This document shows positions 4,478-17,518 of a DNA stretch of 23,844 nucleotides, in pieces (within the stretch, counting starts at the first letter, position 1; every line of letters starts with the position of its first letter). The position numbers were made by a program, and so were the translations under genes. This DNA comes from a virus. The stretch is from IMG/VR virus record IMGVR_UViG_3300020053_000552, positions 1 to 23,844 of that record; one strand, 5' to 3'. The notes beneath the pieces were generated by a model. The model was not told where the DNA came from and made no database searches. It worked only from the letters and a program-made list of their open reading frames with translations.

Positions 4478-5027
4478 GTTGTTCGCATACTAAATTCATA
4501 TGCACAACACACGCCGCAGCATAACTAACAGCATGTGCTTTCTTAAAGAAGTAACTTCCGTCAGTGGGTGCGACCCACACACTTTCTAATATCGTTGTCC
4601 AAGTTTCGTTGACAAGATGGCGTTTGGCAGGCCGAATCATCGCTAACACTGCTGCTAATTGTTCTACGCTTTGTGGCTTTGTTTTGCGTAGGATTTCCCC
4701 ATGTCCGGAGATATGAAAGATAAGATTTGTGAAATCGTCGTGTTGTAAAAGACTCCATTCGGGTTCCTTGTTCATTAGTGTTGTTAAATGATCTTCGTCT
4801 TTGATATTGTTGTAAATGTTTACATTCAAAAAGTCAAGTTTGAAATAGCCTCTATCTTCTGCTGTCTTGTAATCAATAGTACTCAAGTTATCAATAGGAT
4901 TATGCGGACACTCGGTTACATACACACCAGTGTTGTGCTTCTTTCCTGTATCAAGTTTTGCCACACGGTGTTGTATCTTAGATAAGATAACACTGCGATC
5001 AGCAAAGTCGATGTCAATATCCGGCAT
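4455..5027 (-). CDS. Miniature DnaE-like protein (DNA polymerase III alpha palm/fingers remnant)
   Basis: A 190-residue protein that follows the order of motifs in bacterial DnaE at a fraction of its length (DnaE is about 1,160 residues). MPDIDIDFADR at residues 1-11 matches the PDxDxDF palm motif with two catalytic Asp. FKLDFLNV (Asp65) matches KFDFLGL with the third catalytic Asp. SVEQLAAVLAMIRPAKR matches the IALFRPGP segment, and YFFKKAHAVSYAA (159-171) matches GYGFNKSHSAAYA. The PHP, tau-binding and OB domains are absent, as is most of the fingers. T4-like phages replicate with a family B polymerase, so this is unlikely to be the replicase. It might be a small nucleotidyltransferase or a non-catalytic partner. 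It shares a TAATG junction with the upstream nucleotidyltransferase. The relationship is convincing; the activity is unknown. Confidence 0.7.
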   Translation of the reverse strand: MPDIDIDFADRSVILSKIQHRVAKLDTGKKHNTGVYVTECPHNPIDNLSTIDYKTAEDRGYFKLDFLNVNIYNNIKDEDHLTTLMNKEPEWSLLQHDDFTNLIFHISGHGEILRKTKPQSVEQLAAVLAMIRPAKRHLVNETWTTILESVWVAPTDGSYFFKKAHAVSYAAACVVHMNLVCEQLNEQASA

Positions 5028-6977: not shown

Positions 6978-7137
6978 CCGCTGGTTTCTTTTCTGCTGGT
7001 TTCTTTTTCTTGCCCCAAGTGTATACAATATCGTCTTGTTCAGTTTTTGCTCCAGGAGGGCATACTTCTACTTTGTTTCCCTTGGATAACCATTCATCTA
7101 TTGCTGCTTGATCGCTTTTAGTTATTTCGTATCTCAT
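6967..7137 (-). CDS. Small conserved phage protein, 56 residues
   Basis: A short gene starting at ATG 7137 and ending at TAA 6967, filling the space between kdsB and the gp62-like gene. The product begins MRYEITKSDQAAIDEWLSKG, continues VEVCPPGAKTEQDDIVYTWG, and ends in a Lys/Ala/Pro-rich basic tail. Its start overlaps the kdsB 3' end by 20 bases and its stop overlaps the next start by 11 bases, which supports it as a coupled real gene. From memory, similar short proteins of the form tKsDq..IdeWlakGn with a lysine-rich end occur in other marine T4-like phages. No function is known. Confidence 0.72.
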   Translation of the reverse strand: MRYEITKSDQAAIDEWLSKGNKVEVCPPGAKTEQDDIVYTWGKKKKPAEKKPADAK

Positions 7138-7798
7138 TTTTAATGTGCCAATCTTTTAGATCTTGGGGTGAATTTATTTCAATGCCATCAAACTCAACTT
7201 CAACAACACCAATCCTAATACTATTTTGTATCCAACGCAGTTGCTCAAGTTGTTCTAATGTTTCTTCTGTATACTTGGTGCTTGCATTGTACATTGCCTT
7301 TACTTCTCTGTTGTATCCGTAAATACCTAAGTGATGATCTCCGTATGGCAAACTAGCTCTTAAGAACCAATGTGCCCTACCTCTATTATGTATCATTTTA
7401 ACACAGTTTGGATCACTTCGCAAGTTAAAATCCATTGTAGTATATGCAGTTGCTACATCGCTGCGTTGTAGTTCTGCTTCAACTGCACGAATGATATCTT
7501 CTGTAATATCAGGCATGTCGCCTTGTACATTTATGTAACGATCGTATTCTAATACTTTGTCGATTACTTGCATACAACGTTCGGTGCCGTTTTCCGCTTC
7601 TGTGGTCCAAAGACATTTAGTTGCACCAAGATAATTATATACCGTTTGATCGTCGGTTAGCACATATGTGTCTAATCCTGTAGCAGCACATTTGTTGTAA
7701 ATGTGTTCTATCATAGGCACACCGTTTAACGGTGCCATAACCTTGCCAGGAAATCTTGTACTAGCGTATCTAGCAGGTATTAATATTGCTGTGGTCAT
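7118..7798 (-). CDS. kdsB: 3-deoxy-manno-octulosonate cytidylyltransferase (CMP-Kdo synthetase)
   Basis: A 226-residue GT-A-like nucleotidyltransferase starting at ATG 7798, which overlaps the kdsA stop as ATGA. A TTG 12 bases upstream is also in frame but less likely. ILIPARYASTRFPGKVMAPL at residues 5-24 is the CTP-binding signature of KdsB. Further landmarks are VLTDDQ, TEAENGTERC (family form sxsGTeR), YINVQGDMPDI (VNvQGDEPxi) with metal-binding Asp, and HLGIYGYNREV (HiGiYaYrr). Bacterial KdsB is about 245-250 residues. It joins CTP and Kdo to make CMP-Kdo, the donor for Kdo transferases. Being coupled to kdsA confirms a Kdo pathway rather than another CMP-sugar. GDMPDI replaces GDEPLI, so one active-site Glu is Met here. 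Confidence 0.92.
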   Translation of the reverse strand: MTTAILIPARYASTRFPGKVMAPLNGVPMIEHIYNKCAATGLDTYVLTDDQTVYNYLGATKCLWTTEAENGTERCMQVIDKVLEYDRYINVQGDMPDITEDIIRAVEAELQRSDVATAYTTMDFNLRSDPNCVKMIHNRGRAHWFLRASLPYGDHHLGIYGYNREVKAMYNASTKYTEETLEQLEQLRWIQNSIRIGVVEVEFDGIEINSPQDLKDWHIKNEIRNN

Positions 7799-8586
7799 AG
7801 CCAACTCCATCCTCTAGCAGCATCGCTGATTACTTTAATCTGCTTTACTGTATCTTCAAAGTCTTCTAGTCGTAACATATTAGGACCGTCACTAGGCGCA
7901 TTGTCTGGGTCGGCATGTACTTCTAAGAAGAAGTTGCTAATGCCCATAGCAGCGGCAGCACGAGCAAGACCTGGGACGTAATCACGATTACCGCCAGACG
8001 ATTCACCGGCCCCTCCAGGTTTTTGTACTGAGTGCGTTGCGTCAAATACGATCGGAACGCTAAAGTTATCAAGCATGTACTGCATACCATTAAAATCGAC
8101 CACAAGATTGTTATATCCAAAGCTAGTTCCTCTTTCTGTTATCCATACTTCTTTAGCACCTTCTGTTTTTGAAAGGATACCTTTTACGTCCCACGGTGCA
8201 AGAAACTGTCCTTTTTTGATATTTACAACTTTGTCTGTAGCACAGGCTGCTTGTATTAGATCAGTTTGTCTACATAAGAATGCAGGAATCTGTAGTACAT
8301 CGATTGCATCATCAAACTCGTCTCTAATAGTATGCACTTGGCGCACATCGTGTACATCTGTGAGAGTTTTTACTCCAAGTGTTTTTTTGATTTCACGAAA
8401 GTCAAACAGTGTTGCGTACAGTCCTTGTCCGCGTTCGCCGTTTGCACTTGTACGGTTAGCTTTGTCGTAACTAGCCTTGAAGATATATTCTATGCCGTAC
8501 TTGTCGCATACACGCTTGCATTCTTTAGCAATCTCTGCTGATTGTGCTAGTGTCTCGTGCTGGCATGGTCCTGCGATAATTCTCAT
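7795..8586 (-). CDS. kdsA: 3-deoxy-8-phosphooctulonate synthase (Kdo-8-phosphate synthase)
   Basis: A 263-residue TIM-barrel enzyme condensing phosphoenolpyruvate with arabinose 5-phosphate to Kdo 8-phosphate. Diagnostic segments in order are AGPCQHE (Cys8), FKASYDKANRTS, TDVHDV, IPAFLCRQTDL, KKGQFLAPWDVKG, ERGTSFGYNNLV, FDATHSVQKPGG, and LEVHADPDNAPSDGPNML. Cys in AGPC, His in ATHS, Glu in LEVH and Asp in SDGP match the four metal ligands of the metal-dependent class (Aquifex type). The E. coli metal-free class has Asn at the Cys position. Length is close to the family norm (about 265-285). It is coupled by ATGA overlaps to both neighbours. KdsD and KdsC are not in the window, so host enzymes or other phage genes must supply arabinose 5-phosphate and remove the phosphate. 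Confidence 0.96.
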   Translation of the reverse strand: MRIIAGPCQHETLAQSAEIAKECKRVCDKYGIEYIFKASYDKANRTSANGERGQGLYATLFDFREIKKTLGVKTLTDVHDVRQVHTIRDEFDDAIDVLQIPAFLCRQTDLIQAACATDKVVNIKKGQFLAPWDVKGILSKTEGAKEVWITERGTSFGYNNLVVDFNGMQYMLDNFSVPIVFDATHSVQKPGGAGESSGGNRDYVPGLARAAAAMGISNFFLEVHADPDNAPSDGPNMLRLEDFEDTVKQIKVISDAARGWSWL

Positions 8587-13198: not shown

Positions 13199-14044
13199 TT
13201 ACAACCTACTAGTCAAGTTTTTCAGTGACAATCCTTGAGATATTTCATCAAGAGTATATTCGGTGTGAGCATAATCATTTAGCCATTGCTTACGGTTTGG
13301 CCTCCTTGGATGTTCTATATTTTTAAAATCAGTGTTTGAAACATCATACGCAAGACTGCTTGGCCCAGAAAATACTGGTATGCCAGCTAGTATAGCCAAT
13401 GGCCCGGGATTACTACTCCAACTTACAACAGCGTGAACTTTGTTAAATGATAGATTATAATCATCATACGTATTCAATAGTTTTTGAGGCTGATCTCTAT
13501 AAACATTTTTATACTGTCTTTCAATGTCCGGCAACGGGCATCTTGGATGTGGTCGAAAAACTATAGGCATATCAGTATATGTTTGTATTTCATCTATAGT
13601 ATTCATCACCCAGTTACTCATACGTGGCATGCCTTGCCACTGTAGGCTTTTATCATGTTGCCCGCATATTAGTATATACTCGCCGTTGTCTCGCCACGGC
13701 TTTAGAGATAGACCGAGTAGACAACAGCGATCACTGTTATTACTATTAGGCCCAAAGTAAGCATCTCTATTGATGCCATTTAGTCCCACCTTCCATGTTG
13801 TTCCTCGATTGATTCCACCCACTTCCAATACGATTGTTGGTTTGCCGGTCTGTTGATTTTCATTCCAAATACGTGCGTTAGGAGCCATCCTACCGTGAAA
13901 TAATACACTCCATATAACATCAATGCCATTATTACTAGCATTATCGCTACAAGTGTGCCCAAGTGCATTAGCACCTTGTCTAAAAGCATCGAAAACAGGG
14001 GTTGAATTTTGTGCGCCATATTGTGTCCATAAATTAAAGTTCAT
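13199..14044 (-). CDS. GT-B-like glycosyltransferase, possible CMP-sugar (Kdo) transferase, copy A
   Basis: A 281-residue protein starting at ATG 14044, with AGGA nine bases upstream. A TTG ten codons earlier is in frame but unlikely. The C-terminal half carries IVFRPHPRC (His166-Pro167) and AVVSWSSNPGPLAILAGIPV (Ser residues 208-211). These match the HP and Ser motifs known in sialyl- and beta-Kdo-transferases of GT-B fold, such as polysialyltransferases and KpsC/KpsS. The N-terminal half is a weaker Rossmann-like domain. Two related proteins (14891-15820 and 15807-16619) share the layout, including the ending IEHPRRPNRKQWLND. With KdsA and KdsB encoded in this window, CMP-Kdo is a sensible donor, but this is inference. 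Family members are often larger. Confidence 0.65.
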   Translation of the reverse strand: MNFNLWTQYGAQNSTPVFDAFRQGANALGHTCSDNASNNGIDVIWSVLFHGRMAPNARIWNENQQTGKPTIVLEVGGINRGTTWKVGLNGINRDAYFGPNSNNSDRCCLLGLSLKPWRDNGEYILICGQHDKSLQWQGMPRMSNWVMNTIDEIQTYTDMPIVFRPHPRCPLPDIERQYKNVYRDQPQKLLNTYDDYNLSFNKVHAVVSWSSNPGPLAILAGIPVFSGPSSLAYDVSNTDFKNIEHPRRPNRKQWLNDYAHTEYTLDEISQGLSLKNLTSRL

Positions 14045-14073
14045 TGTTAAATATCCTAGTACACTATTTAACA
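14045..14073. repeat. Inverted repeat in the divergent gap between two glycosyltransferase genes
   Basis: Perfect 8-base arms, TGTTAAAT (14045-14052) and ATTTAACA (14066-14073), flank a 13-base centre. The repeat fills most of the 40 bases between minus-strand ATG 14044 and plus-strand GTG 14085. It could be an operator for both genes or an RNA hairpin hiding a ribosome site, since the minus-strand AGGA lies inside its centre. Confidence 0.4.
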
Positions 14074-14084
14074 AGGATTAGCCC

Positions 14085-14903
14085 GTGACAACAATTTCTT
14101 TTGTATCAACTTTCCACAAGCCTGTATTAGATTTATACGGGCAACGCTTTGTTGACAGTTTTAGTAAAAACATTGATCAACAAATAAAACTTTATCTGTA
14201 TGCAGAAGACTGTGTTCCTGTTACAGATGATCCACGTATACACATTATGGATCATCATGCAACACTTCCAAAACTAGTTGCATTTAAAAACAAATGGAAA
14301 GATGTGCCTAAAGCAAATGGAAAATGTCCATGGCCTGAAAGGCGTCCAAGAGATCATCATAAAGAGTTTAAATGGAATGCAATACGATTTGCCAACAAAG
14401 TATATGCAGTATTTGATGCTGCACAACGTTGCGATACAGATTGGCTTGTTTGGCTAGATGCTGATACGTATGTACACTCGCCTGCATTATTAATGGACTT
14501 GCAAAAGTTTACACCCAAACGTGCTTGGATGAGTTATTTAGGCAGAGGAAAGAAGTGGCCCGAGTGCGGGTTTTACGGGCTAAATCTTAAAACAGATGCA
14601 GCACAAGAGTTTTTAGCAGAGTTTGAACGTGTGTACCAAGATGCTGAAAATGGAATATTCCAAATGGAAGAATGGCATGATAGTTATGTATTTGAAGAAG
14701 TAAGAAAAAAGATACAACACAAACATAGCCGAGTGCCGTTTTTTAACATAAGCGGTGATTTAATAAACGGCGAAGGACACCCAATGATTAACAGTGATTT
14801 AGGAAAATATTTTGATCACTTGAAAGGCGACAGAAAAGAAGTTGGGAAAAGCAACAAACCAAAAGACTTGAAAGTTAAACGCACTGAAAGTTATTGGCAG
14901 TAG
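14085..14903 (+). CDS. GT-A glycosyltransferase with DxD motif (plus-strand copy)
   Basis: A 272-residue protein starting at GTG 14085, with AAGGA seven bases upstream. WLVWLDADTYVHSP around residue 125 contains the DAD metal and nucleotide-sugar motif. SYLGRGKKWPECGFYGLN near residue 146, HDSYVF near residue 194, and the final GHPMIN...LGKYFDHLKGDRK segment are shared with the protein at 20501-21253, so the two are paralogues. Such phage GT-A proteins probably move a nucleotide-activated sugar onto a glycan or protein; donor and acceptor are unknown. It is one of only two plus-strand genes in the window and overlaps the convergent gene at its 3' end by 13 bases. Basic C-terminal tail (NKPKDLKVKRTESYWQ). 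Confidence 0.8.
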   Translation: MTTISFVSTFHKPVLDLYGQRFVDSFSKNIDQQIKLYLYAEDCVPVTDDPRIHIMDHHATLPKLVAFKNKWKDVPKANGKCPWPERRPRDHHKEFKWNAIRFANKVYAVFDAAQRCDTDWLVWLDADTYVHSPALLMDLQKFTPKRAWMSYLGRGKKWPECGFYGLNLKTDAAQEFLAEFERVYQDAENGIFQMEEWHDSYVFEEVRKKIQHKHSRVPFFNISGDLINGEGHPMINSDLGKYFDHLKGDRKEVGKSNKPKDLKVKRTESYWQ

Positions 14904-15820
14904 TTGCGCATATGCCGCCAACAAGTTCCATTGCGCAGTTCATCAAATTTCCAGTGGAACATACTAATACGTTGTAGCCATGCTTCTCTGTCAAACTCTT
15001 TTGGGCTTTCTAATCTGTGGAAATCATCATGCGAAACATCACTACACTGACTGTTTGTACTATCGGTTATAAATGAGTGATACCCTTGTATAATAGGACC
15101 TACTACGCTACTACTGTTATGGTTAACCACTGCCCATGCTTTGTGCATGTCTTGTTCCAGCGGTGTGCCAAACTCACTTATTCGTACGCCTCTTATTTTT
15201 GCCAGTCGAGAAGTACGATGATTTAAATATTGATGTGCCGCTTTGTCGCCTGGGTGTGCTCTAACAACAATGGGCCTGTCGCTGTGTTTTCGAATACGAT
15301 TAATAGTTTGTATTGCCCATTCTTGCACATCTAGCCCTTTCATGCTCCAACCACCGTTGCGTTGCATCATTAGAACAATAAACTTTCCTTTTTTAATAGT
15401 AGGTTGTAACTGTATGCCAGTGTCTCTACTAATAATATTCCATCTATTAGGATCAACGTGTGCATCGCAATATTCGCCAGTTGTAGGGAATATTCCATTA
15501 AAACTATATCGTAGATAGCCATGCGGATTAAGTTTATTAGCATATAAAAAAAGATTAGCATCGGCGCAGCAAACATGTTTATTTGTTTTAGCTTGATGAT
15601 TAATAATGTCGTCTCTTAACTTTAAATGAGGAGTAGTTTTTTTATCATATACCCATCCTTGTATAACTCCAACATCAGAGTTTACTAAGTGTTCTCCATC
15701 ATGTAGTATACCGGTATCGCCTGCTGCATTAACACCTTGTACAAAATGTTTTAATAACAATGTCTTTTGTTCATTGCTGTTTGCTCTTGGAACACTTTTA
15801 AGATAACTAACTACTTTCAT
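14891..15820 (-). CDS. GT-B-like glycosyltransferase, possible CMP-sugar (Kdo) transferase, copy B
   Basis: A 309-residue relative of the gene at 13199-14044. Shared landmarks are a W....TI.RIRKHSDRPIV block, VRAHPG with His189-Pro190, and AVVNHNSSSVVGPIIQGYHS with Ser residues 236-238. After these come DVSHDDFHRLESP and a conserved REAWLQR near the end; copy A has DVSNTDFKNIEHP followed by RKQWLND. HP and Ser motifs are those of CMP-sugar-using GT-B enzymes. Compared with copy A it has a different N-terminal half (LVNSDVGVIQGWVYDKKT), which in GT-B enzymes binds the acceptor, so the acceptor probably differs. The start overlaps the upstream relative by 14 bases. Kdo as the transferred sugar is inferred from kdsA and kdsB in the window. 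Confidence 0.65.
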   Translation of the reverse strand: MKVVSYLKSVPRANSNEQKTLLLKHFVQGVNAAGDTGILHDGEHLVNSDVGVIQGWVYDKKTTPHLKLRDDIINHQAKTNKHVCCADANLFLYANKLNPHGYLRYSFNGIFPTTGEYCDAHVDPNRWNIISRDTGIQLQPTIKKGKFIVLMMQRNGGWSMKGLDVQEWAIQTINRIRKHSDRPIVVRAHPGDKAAHQYLNHRTSRLAKIRGVRISEFGTPLEQDMHKAWAVVNHNSSSVVGPIIQGYHSFITDSTNSQCSDVSHDDFHRLESPKEFDREAWLQRISMFHWKFDELRNGTCWRHMRNYCQ

Positions 15821-16619
15821 TTAGTATTTCCCAGGCAATGCCTGTACGCATTTCTTTGGCTGTAAACTGACAATAACTTAGATGTGCAGCAAATGCAGTC
15901 ATGTCGACAGGGTTAGGTATATACAAATCATTTATCTGAGATATTTCAGTATTACAAAACATTGTTGCTGAATTTTGTGCTAATGCTATTGCAGGAACAC
16001 CGTAAAGTAATGCTTCAGTGGCCGCAATGCTATTATAAGTAACTACGCAATATGCATCCTCCATAGCCTGCTGAATAGTATTTGTACTAGTTCGATCGGT
16101 ACGTGAAGGTTTTAGTCTAACTTCAATATCCATTGATGTATATTTTTTAATCTCTGCTATAGTTTCTTGCATCCATGTATCCAAGTTATATCCATTAAAT
16201 ACCATAACTTTTTCACTTGGTGGAACTATTAATATTTTTGATCCAGGGCGATGATTTCTATATCTCCATTTTAATAGACCGAGTCTATCGTGGTCTCTAG
16301 GAATACAAGGTCCAAGATTTTGCATAGCGTTTTTTGTAATTCGATGATAATCTTTTTTGACACCAGCTTGTATATATCCAGTATCAATAGTATAAAAATC
16401 AATATTATGTTGCTGACAGTACCTAATAGCTTTACGACTAGTGCCGCCTATGCCTCTACAAACTAATGGATTGGTAGTGCCTTTCTTAGCGTCCCATTCG
16501 CCAAGTTTGCCACCGCATCCAATAATAAATGATTCAAGATAAGGATCGTATTCAACACCTTTTTTTGATAAATCAAAATCTTCTGTATCTGGTGCTATTG
16601 CTTGTACTTTTCTGCCCAT
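15807..16619 (-). CDS. GT-B-like protein, copy C, with altered HP motif
   Basis: A 270-residue third relative, starting at ATG 16619 with AAGGA seven bases upstream. The block VRLKPSR places Lys170-Pro171 where the other two copies have His-Pro. VVTYNSIAATEALLYGVPAI (Ser197) supplies the Ser motif and the helix that closes the donor site in GT-B enzymes. The N-terminal half includes FIIGCGGKLGEWD and a NIDFYTIDTGYIQ strand. Loss of the HP histidine, thought to contact CMP in this superfamily, suggests a different donor or reduced activity. The same frame is open for 53 more codons upstream, reaching the A9 run in the GT8-like gene, so a longer fused form is possible. The ending is coupled to copy B. 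Confidence 0.62.
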   Translation of the reverse strand: MGRKVQAIAPDTEDFDLSKKGVEYDPYLESFIIGCGGKLGEWDAKKGTTNPLVCRGIGGTSRKAIRYCQQHNIDFYTIDTGYIQAGVKKDYHRITKNAMQNLGPCIPRDHDRLGLLKWRYRNHRPGSKILIVPPSEKVMVFNGYNLDTWMQETIAEIKKYTSMDIEVRLKPSRTDRTSTNTIQQAMEDAYCVVTYNSIAATEALLYGVPAIALAQNSATMFCNTEISQINDLYIPNPVDMTAFAAHLSYCQFTAKEMRTGIAWEILNESS

Positions 16620-16785
16620 ATTATTTTCCTTAACTTCTTTTAATATTTTATCCGGCTGGTATACTACTCTGTCAGGATCAACTATATCCTGTACTGTTGC
16701 ATTAAAATAATCAATAAGATATTTTGGATAATCTAAGTCGTCTATTTTTCTATCTCTAAATCTTAAATCACCGATCTTTTTTTTT
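16620..16785 (-). other. Stop-free -1 frame from an A9 run joining the GT8-like gene to GT-B copy C
   Basis: The minus strand has nine consecutive A (16785-16777) near the end of the GT8-like gene. In that gene's frame a stop follows four codons after the run. A -1 shift on AAA AAA instead enters a frame with 53 sense codons (starting KIGDLRFRDRKIDDLDYPKY, ending LKEVKENN). That frame continues without a stop into ATG 16619 of copy C. It has no ATG, GTG or TTG of its own and reads like real protein. The predicted fusion would have about 570 residues. Confidence 0.6.
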
Positions 16786-17518
16786 GACTTTCGATTATTT
16801 CTTCATGCATACGACTTTTTGCATTATACCATTCACTTGCATATTCGCAAGATTCATATTGTTTAAACCAAGGGCCACCTTCTGTGTAGTGTAAAAACTT
16901 TGGAGATCCATCCTCTGGTTCTTTGTACCATCCTACTAACCAGTTCCATTCGTGACTTAGTTCTCCAATTTCTGTATCGTCTAGCCAACTAAATCTATGA
17001 AAGTATGCTCCAGTTTTATGTACATTGTTTACTTGTTCGGCTGTTATACTTGCATTGCTAGGATGCCCACAGTTAATAAGCATCATACTACTCCAGTTTT
17101 TACGTGGATATATATGCTGAACTTGTCCGTCCATTTTTACAGTTTCTTTTGGAGTGTAATCATGTTGAGCGCACATCACAGCATATTTGTCATCAACTTG
17201 GTCAAACAATAGTTTAACATCTTCGAGAGCAACAAAGTCACAGTCAATAAACAATGCCCAACCTTTATACTCGGTTAAATGCGGAATAAGAAATCTTGTA
17301 AATGTAAATTCTGTACTTGCTAACGCATCTACTGGTCTAGTATATACTTTATGCTTACGAAGTTCTTTTTGCTTCAATGGTATAACTTCAACAGGAACAC
17401 TAGCAAGTTGTTCAATACTGCTTTTACACACTTGGTATGCAATATCTTCTCTGCTATCCCAACCTACAAATATTTTTAATGGTTCAATAGGTTGATCTAT
17501 TTTAATCTCTTCGCTCAA
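16763..17518 (-). CDS. GT8-like GT-A glycosyltransferase
   Basis: A 251-residue protein opening with a 14-residue leader, then KIFVGWDSREDIAYQVCKSS, typical of a GT8-like phage/bacterial family. ALFIDCDFVALED around residue 92 contains the DxD motif for metal and nucleotide-sugar. NWSSMMLINCGHPSN and FSWLDDTEIGELSHEWNWLVGW follow, and the late KFLHYTEGGPWF resembles the GT8 HxxGxxKPW segment that binds the diphosphate. The donor is unknown, likely a UDP- or GDP-sugar. The start lies 17 bases inside the nucleotidyltransferase-cupin gene. The last four residues (RSVI) follow an A9 run, and the true C-terminus may continue in the -1 frame into GT-B copy C. Confidence 0.82.
   Translation of the reverse strand: MSEEIKIDQPIEPLKIFVGWDSREDIAYQVCKSSIEQLASVPVEVIPLKQKELRKHKVYTRPVDALASTEFTFTRFLIPHLTEYKGWALFIDCDFVALEDVKLLFDQVDDKYAVMCAQHDYTPKETVKMDGQVQHIYPRKNWSSMMLINCGHPSNASITAEQVNNVHKTGAYFHRFSWLDDTEIGELSHEWNWLVGWYKEPEDGSPKFLHYTEGGPWFKQYESCEYASEWYNAKSRMHEEIIESQKKRSVI

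Follow-up and report, generated by a model that had tools for sequence, protein, structure and literature searches.

A conserved A9 slippery site in a bifunctional phage glycosyltransferase gene, most likely a site of host RNA polymerase slippage

Results

A glycosyltransferase gene divided between two reading frames

The window, i.e., the whole 23,844-nucleotide stretch of viral DNA analysed here, carries on its minus strand a gene composed of a GT8-like glycosyltransferase, a linker and a GT-B-like domain, with a change of frame at a run of nine A (Table 1). A preliminary description had placed these nine A at 16785-16777 and the TAA of the GT8 frame four codons further on, which is exact: read from the sequence, the junction is GAA AGT CAA AAA AAA AGA TCG GTG ATT TAA. 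The start-less -1 frame of 53 codons, said to run into the GT-B open reading frame, was confirmed as well. Its peptide begins at 16778 (KIGDLRFRDRK...KEVKENN) without any ATG, GTG or TTG, and the frame stays open through the ATG at 16619 down to the stop at 15807. A shift at the run would join 247 and 323 residues, so that the fusion, estimated before at about 570 residues, has a computed length of exactly 570. The run is the sole homopolymer of at least 8 nt in the window. The base composition of the window predicts approximately one T9 by chance; an A9 alone is thus unremarkable and acquires meaning only through its place and its conservation.

Table 1. Parts of the two-frame glycosyltransferase gene and their positions in the window
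Feature	Positions	Strand	Remarks
Slippery run A9	16777..16785	minus	Zero-frame phase CAA AAA AAA AGA; conserved in L002-L009
Zero-frame TAA, four codons past the run; would give GT8 alone	16763..16765	minus	Present throughout the clade
GT8 (GT-A fold) glycosyltransferase frame, 251 aa, TTG start, DCD (DxD) motif, C-terminal end QKKRSVI-stop	16763..17518	minus	
Helical linker, 53 codons, -1 frame, no start codon	16620..16778	minus	Purifying selection (dN/dS ~0.2); helices in the model of a natural fusion
AAGGA, Shine-Dalgarno-like, ahead of the internal start of the second domain	16627..16631	minus	
GT-B domain, 270 aa from the internal ATG at 16619	15807..16619	minus	Fold nearest to the retaining beta-Kdo transferases KpsC/WbbB/KrkA
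Entire two-frame gene; predicted 570-aa fusion if a shift occurs at the run	15807..17518	minus	

Identity of the two enzyme halves and genome context

The GT8 half of the window matched Pfam family PF01501 with 25.1 bits (cut-off 24.3), and its DCD motif was invariant in all 14 aligned sequences. A sequence comparison with solved structures gave no match. The structure modelled for L039, a natural fusion (mean pLDDT 82.9), contains two folded domains with helices between them; the fold of its GT8 half matched UGGT, LgtC and a GT8 structure. For the model of the window GT-B domain (pLDDT 84.8, pTM 0.81), the 16 best PDB fold matches were all to KpsC, KrkA and WbbB, with TM-scores of about 0.31-0.45 and 10-15% identity to these beta-Kdo transferases. 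The nucleophile motif QXXXD, which is invariant in the retaining beta-Kdo transferases of GT99, GT107 and GT140 (PMC10148158, PMC12887879), had no conserved copy in 20 aligned GT-B sequences. As this motif is missing, the GT-B half was not firmly assigned as a Kdo transferase, and we offer a Kdo donor, suggested by the modelled fold, as a lead and not as an assignment.

Proteins of the DAHP-synthase family and a cytidylyltransferase are encoded elsewhere in the window; on the minus strand, positions 7118-7810 and 7795-8586 hold a CMP-Kdo-synthetase-like and a Kdo-8-phosphate-synthase-like gene. Their finer naming as a putative Kdo-8-phosphate synthase and CMP-Kdo synthetase follows from sequence and gene neighbourhood. 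The presence of both in one phage suggests that it may make its own CMP-Kdo. Genes for UvsX-like and helicase proteins of T4 type are also present. Two further minus-strand frames (13199-14074 and 14891-15820) have no Pfam match and look GT-B-like by eye, with RPHPR and RAHPGD motifs.

An alignment-based scan of cellular genome contigs returned no relative of the GT-B half, which was found only in phages; on this ground we rejected a cellular origin. The GT8 half alone occurs on plasmids of Alphaproteobacteria, too.

The closest relatives of the window gene

Eight other IMG/VR contigs carry the window gene, and in all of them the A9, the stop and the -1 junction are as in the window. Together they span three lineages, with 82-100% identity to the window in the GT-B domain. 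Two contigs match at 100% over both halves (L002, L003) and a third at 100% up to its cut-off in the linker (L004). L005 and L006 share 96% in the GT8 half, with 82% in the GT-B half for L006, while L007-L009 share 85% in GT8 and 91% in GT-B. A DNA search anchored upstream of the run, to which run length is invisible, recovered the same eight contigs only. Between the lineages of this clade, dN is 0.08-0.15 and dS 0.40-0.74 for the linker in its -1 reading (dN/dS ~0.2). Purifying selection thus acts in that frame and, as the linker of the window has no start of its own, implies translation through the junction.

Reading frames across the family

Individual IMG/VR scans yielded between 345 and 569 relatives. 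We collected 337 loci from viral contigs, mainly by five scans at the protein level and one anchored DNA search, which reduced to 127 distinct genes and 97 clusters at 95%. Aligning homologues had been proposed as a check for a continuous fusion, and such a fusion turned out to be the usual arrangement: 73 of the 97 distinct genes contain GT8, linker and GT-B in one open reading frame, typically of about 550-590 aa. Another 17 clusters are out of frame with a run at the exact point of the frame change, A9 in 13 and A10 in 4 of them (for instance L033, L081, L118, L129, L131, L145, L185, L202 and L106). A -1 shift is required in all 17 of these, and a +1 shift at a run in none. Six clusters forming one clade (e.g., L234, L319) have separate genes, the second start overlapping the first stop, with neither linker nor run. 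The one remaining gene, L224, out of frame but with no run, was omitted from the tree. Gene callers split this bifunctional GT8-GT-B enzyme in many phages, and two glycosyltransferases that are annotated apart may be one bifunctional enzyme.

The shifted genes occupy five separate positions in the tree, and L020, which at 95% fell into one cluster with the near-identical L017, represents a sixth. Six origins in one direction have a chance probability of p ~0.03 (two-sided), and the one-sided -1 direction by itself is suggestive. Within a clade whose members need the shift, L126 has a 95-base deletion (gene position ~715) that removes the run together with the linker and restores one frame; this deletion could be real or an assembly product.

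Conservation of the A-tract

Runs of at least nine A are concentrated in the linkers: 49 were found in 27 kb of linker, 0 in the remaining 136 kb of gene sequence and 1 in 448 kb of flanks. This single flank A9 (L300, position 3521) is situated early in the gene that follows the GT-B domain; the protein of this gene resembles that of window positions 14891-15820, where the run is absent. The longest run per linker was A6 in 11 cases, A7 in 12, A8 in 3, A9 in 17, A10 in 27 and A11 in 5. The base before the run was C in 48 of the 49 and the base after it T in 32 of the 49.

In-frame genes account for 32 of the 49 runs. In 25 of these 32 (78%), both other frames are closed within three codons after the run, compared with 32 of 629 (5%) among the shorter A-runs in other parts of the genes. 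With stops so near in both other frames, slippage in an in-frame gene would terminate the protein directly after GT8. The codon phase of the run differs among the genes (QKKNL, QKKKL, SKKKL, PKKKL and KKKIS represent all three phases), and there are two main sites for it, one about 10 and the other about 29-39 codons upstream of the linker's IDP motif; it is thus the nucleotides and not the residues that are kept. Where the peptide permits a choice, the codons are all-A in 18 of 19 (QKK) and 19 of 21 (KKK) cases, where codon usage would predict ~50%. The corresponding p of ~5e-5 each ignores relatedness and is strong evidence, though not an exact value. The 97 genes are related to one another, so that none of these counts is fully independent, and a lysine-rich linker in AT-rich genomes could explain some of the conservation of the run, though the codon choice departs from usage.

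With the tract present in about half of the 97 distinct genes and the frame changed several times around it, what this widespread family of phage enzymes conserves is the slippery tract and not the reading frame. Genes bearing the run should produce both GT8 alone and the fusion. As 41 of the 97 relatives are in frame and lack a run, and six more, a clade of their own, have separate genes, the mixture of products is not essential to all members.

An internal start for the GT-B domain

Of 43 genes with an ATG at the GT-B start, 30 carry a Shine-Dalgarno-like sequence ahead of it, compared with 129 of 956 (13%) other internal ATGs. This supports the earlier suggestion that AAGGA and the ATG at 16619 give the second domain alone, and GT-B alone is a likely third product in the window and many relatives.

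Discussion

We propose, with a probability of roughly 70%, that this bifunctional phage glycosyltransferase gene has a conserved A9 slippery site at which most likely the host RNA polymerase slips, and that the resulting mixture of products is kept. The polymerase would stutter on the run and add an A to part of the messages. In the window clade, A9 messages would by default yield GT8 alone (251 aa) and A10 messages the 570-aa fusion, to which the internal Shine-Dalgarno-like sequence and ATG could add GT-B alone as a third product. In many relatives, which have A10-A11 and are in frame, the fusion would be the default and slippage would lead to GT8 alone. Selection would then act on the mixture of products rather than on the frame.

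The preliminary description had left the choice between ribosome and polymerase open. Slippage as such is supported by the junction, the linker and the family, and the polymerase is in our judgement the likelier agent. A shift of the ribosome by -1, with two tRNA-Lys slipping on A_AAA_AAA, is the principal alternative, and we consider it unlikely. The RNA would remain unchanged, and since every A9 run holds an in-phase A_AAA_AAA, the product would be an identical protein of 570 aa. Every shifted gene has the heptamer in phase (in the window as CAA AAA AAA AGA), the direction is always -1, and ribosomes of E. coli are known to slide on A-runs (PMC4363877). However, an A7 would be enough for the ribosome, yet run lengths skip from A7 to at least A9 with few A8, and A_AAA_AAA is weaker than A_AAA_AAG in E. 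coli (PMC5009743). A search for stimulatory elements likewise argues against the ribosome: no downstream RNA structure was found (mean z of -0.07 in the 17 shifted genes), and an upstream Shine-Dalgarno-like sequence accompanies just 6 of the 49 runs. A weak hairpin 3' of the run in the window (z -0.68) was rejected as a stimulator, as the window clade has no compensatory change in it and L006 folds worse than its shuffles. Some known frameshift sites need no stimulator.

Several observations favour the polymerase instead, though none amounts to proof. The threshold lies at nine A, where seven would suffice for a ribosome, and nine A is the length for which efficient slippage of the bacterial polymerase is reported (PMC1088944; PMC5009743). 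Every shifted gene needs an insertion, and insertions predominate in homopolymers: in Buchnera, 151 of 157 insertions were located within homopolymers vs 16 of 57 deletions (PMC5574713). The lack of downstream structure and the rarity of upstream Shine-Dalgarno-like sequences point the same way, and a mixture of messages readily explains why the run is kept in in-frame genes. While run, junction, linker selection, family-wide enrichment and placement of the stops are properties of the sequences themselves, we infer from them that the polymerase probably slips in place of the ribosome, and likewise the product ratio and its use.

Phase variation, with the run length changing in the phage DNA and the fusion being switched on or off between individual phages, appears very improbable. 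Its best case is the otherwise near-identical pair of L017, in frame with A11, and L020, shifted with A10, but this is the sole difference in run length within clusters of at least 95% identity. The shifted alleles have moreover remained stable through deep divergence, their linker conserved, and they are all on one side, where slippage of DNA should give both. The two loci of that pair (both at position 4800) come from different samples and may represent natural run-length variation or a consensus error.

About as improbable as phase variation, or slightly more so, are two separate genes, in which the GT8 stop is followed by initiation at the internal ATG of GT-B and the linker is a relic. 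The internal start does have its Shine-Dalgarno-like sequence, in one clade (L234, L319 and others) the genes are truly separate, and they are so in Pelagibacter phage Mosig and Caulobacter phages as well; among cultured phages only distant relatives were found, with separate genes. However, purifying selection acts in the -1 frame on the start-less linker, whose homologue is found in the continuous fusions, and the true separate-gene loci have neither linker nor run. Among the 97 clusters, separate homologues without a linker, named beforehand as a finding that would speak against recoding, form that one clade of six, and in the shifted clade of the window the linker is conserved. The earlier caution that a missing A would look the same was taken up, too: homopolymers are prone to error, but a base lost from the assembly can be dismissed for practical purposes, as A9 recurs in nine independent contigs from several samples and three diverged lineages and 14 other distinct shifted genes have the same pattern.

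Polymerase slippage on a retained tract may serve a further purpose. We give about even odds to a standing dosage device, in which an A9-A11 tract together with local stops would hold the ratio of free GT8 to fusion while the default frame flips freely, tuning the modification of host or phage surface glycans. In bacteria, the uses of polymerase slippage known so far are mostly in single genes or insertion sequences. A phage gene family in which the tract is kept and the frame flipped makes the question of whether selection acts on frame or mixture directly testable between sister genes. No earlier report of a phage glycosyltransferase with slippage was found in the literature searched, whose coverage leaves out most subscription journals. 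The mechanism is of a known kind, whereas the family, its extent and the repeated frame flips are new as far as this search shows.

The nearest glycosyltransferase case is a Helicobacter fucosyltransferase gene with a ribosomal frameshift. As regards sequence and fold, the GT8 half of the enzyme described here resembles GT8/GT24 enzymes such as LgtC and the catalytic domain of UGGT in its PF01501 match, DxD motif and fold, but differs in being fused to a GT-B domain. The best fold matches of the GT-B half are KpsC (GT107), WbbB (GT99) and KrkA (GT140), and the window has Kdo-synthesis-like genes, but the TM-scores (only ~0.31-0.45), the identity (10-15%) and the non-conserved QXXXD set it apart. 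With regard to slippage, the transposases of insertion sequences use 9A/9T tracts (PMC1088944) and share with the present gene an A-run that fuses two frames, in a transposase there and a glycosyltransferase here. In dnaX of Thermus thermophilus, transcriptional slippage occurs on an A9 (PMC1088944); there as here the run is at the slippage threshold and a mixture of full-length and truncated protein results, predicted in our case. The default reading of dnaX is in frame, as it is in many relatives of the window gene, whereas the window gene itself needs a shift to be read through. The closest parallel in opposite use among homologues is found in tssM1 of Citrobacter rodentium, where slippage on an A11 leads to the long form, and tssM3 of Yersinia pseudotuberculosis, which is in frame and where slippage leads to the short form (PMC4256274). 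These genes, too, have an A-run close to a premature stop and two length variants, and they lack stimulatory RNA elements. In contrast, the system described here is a phage enzyme with two catalytic domains, known from its sequences, in which the tract is present in about half of 97 genes and the frame has changed several times.
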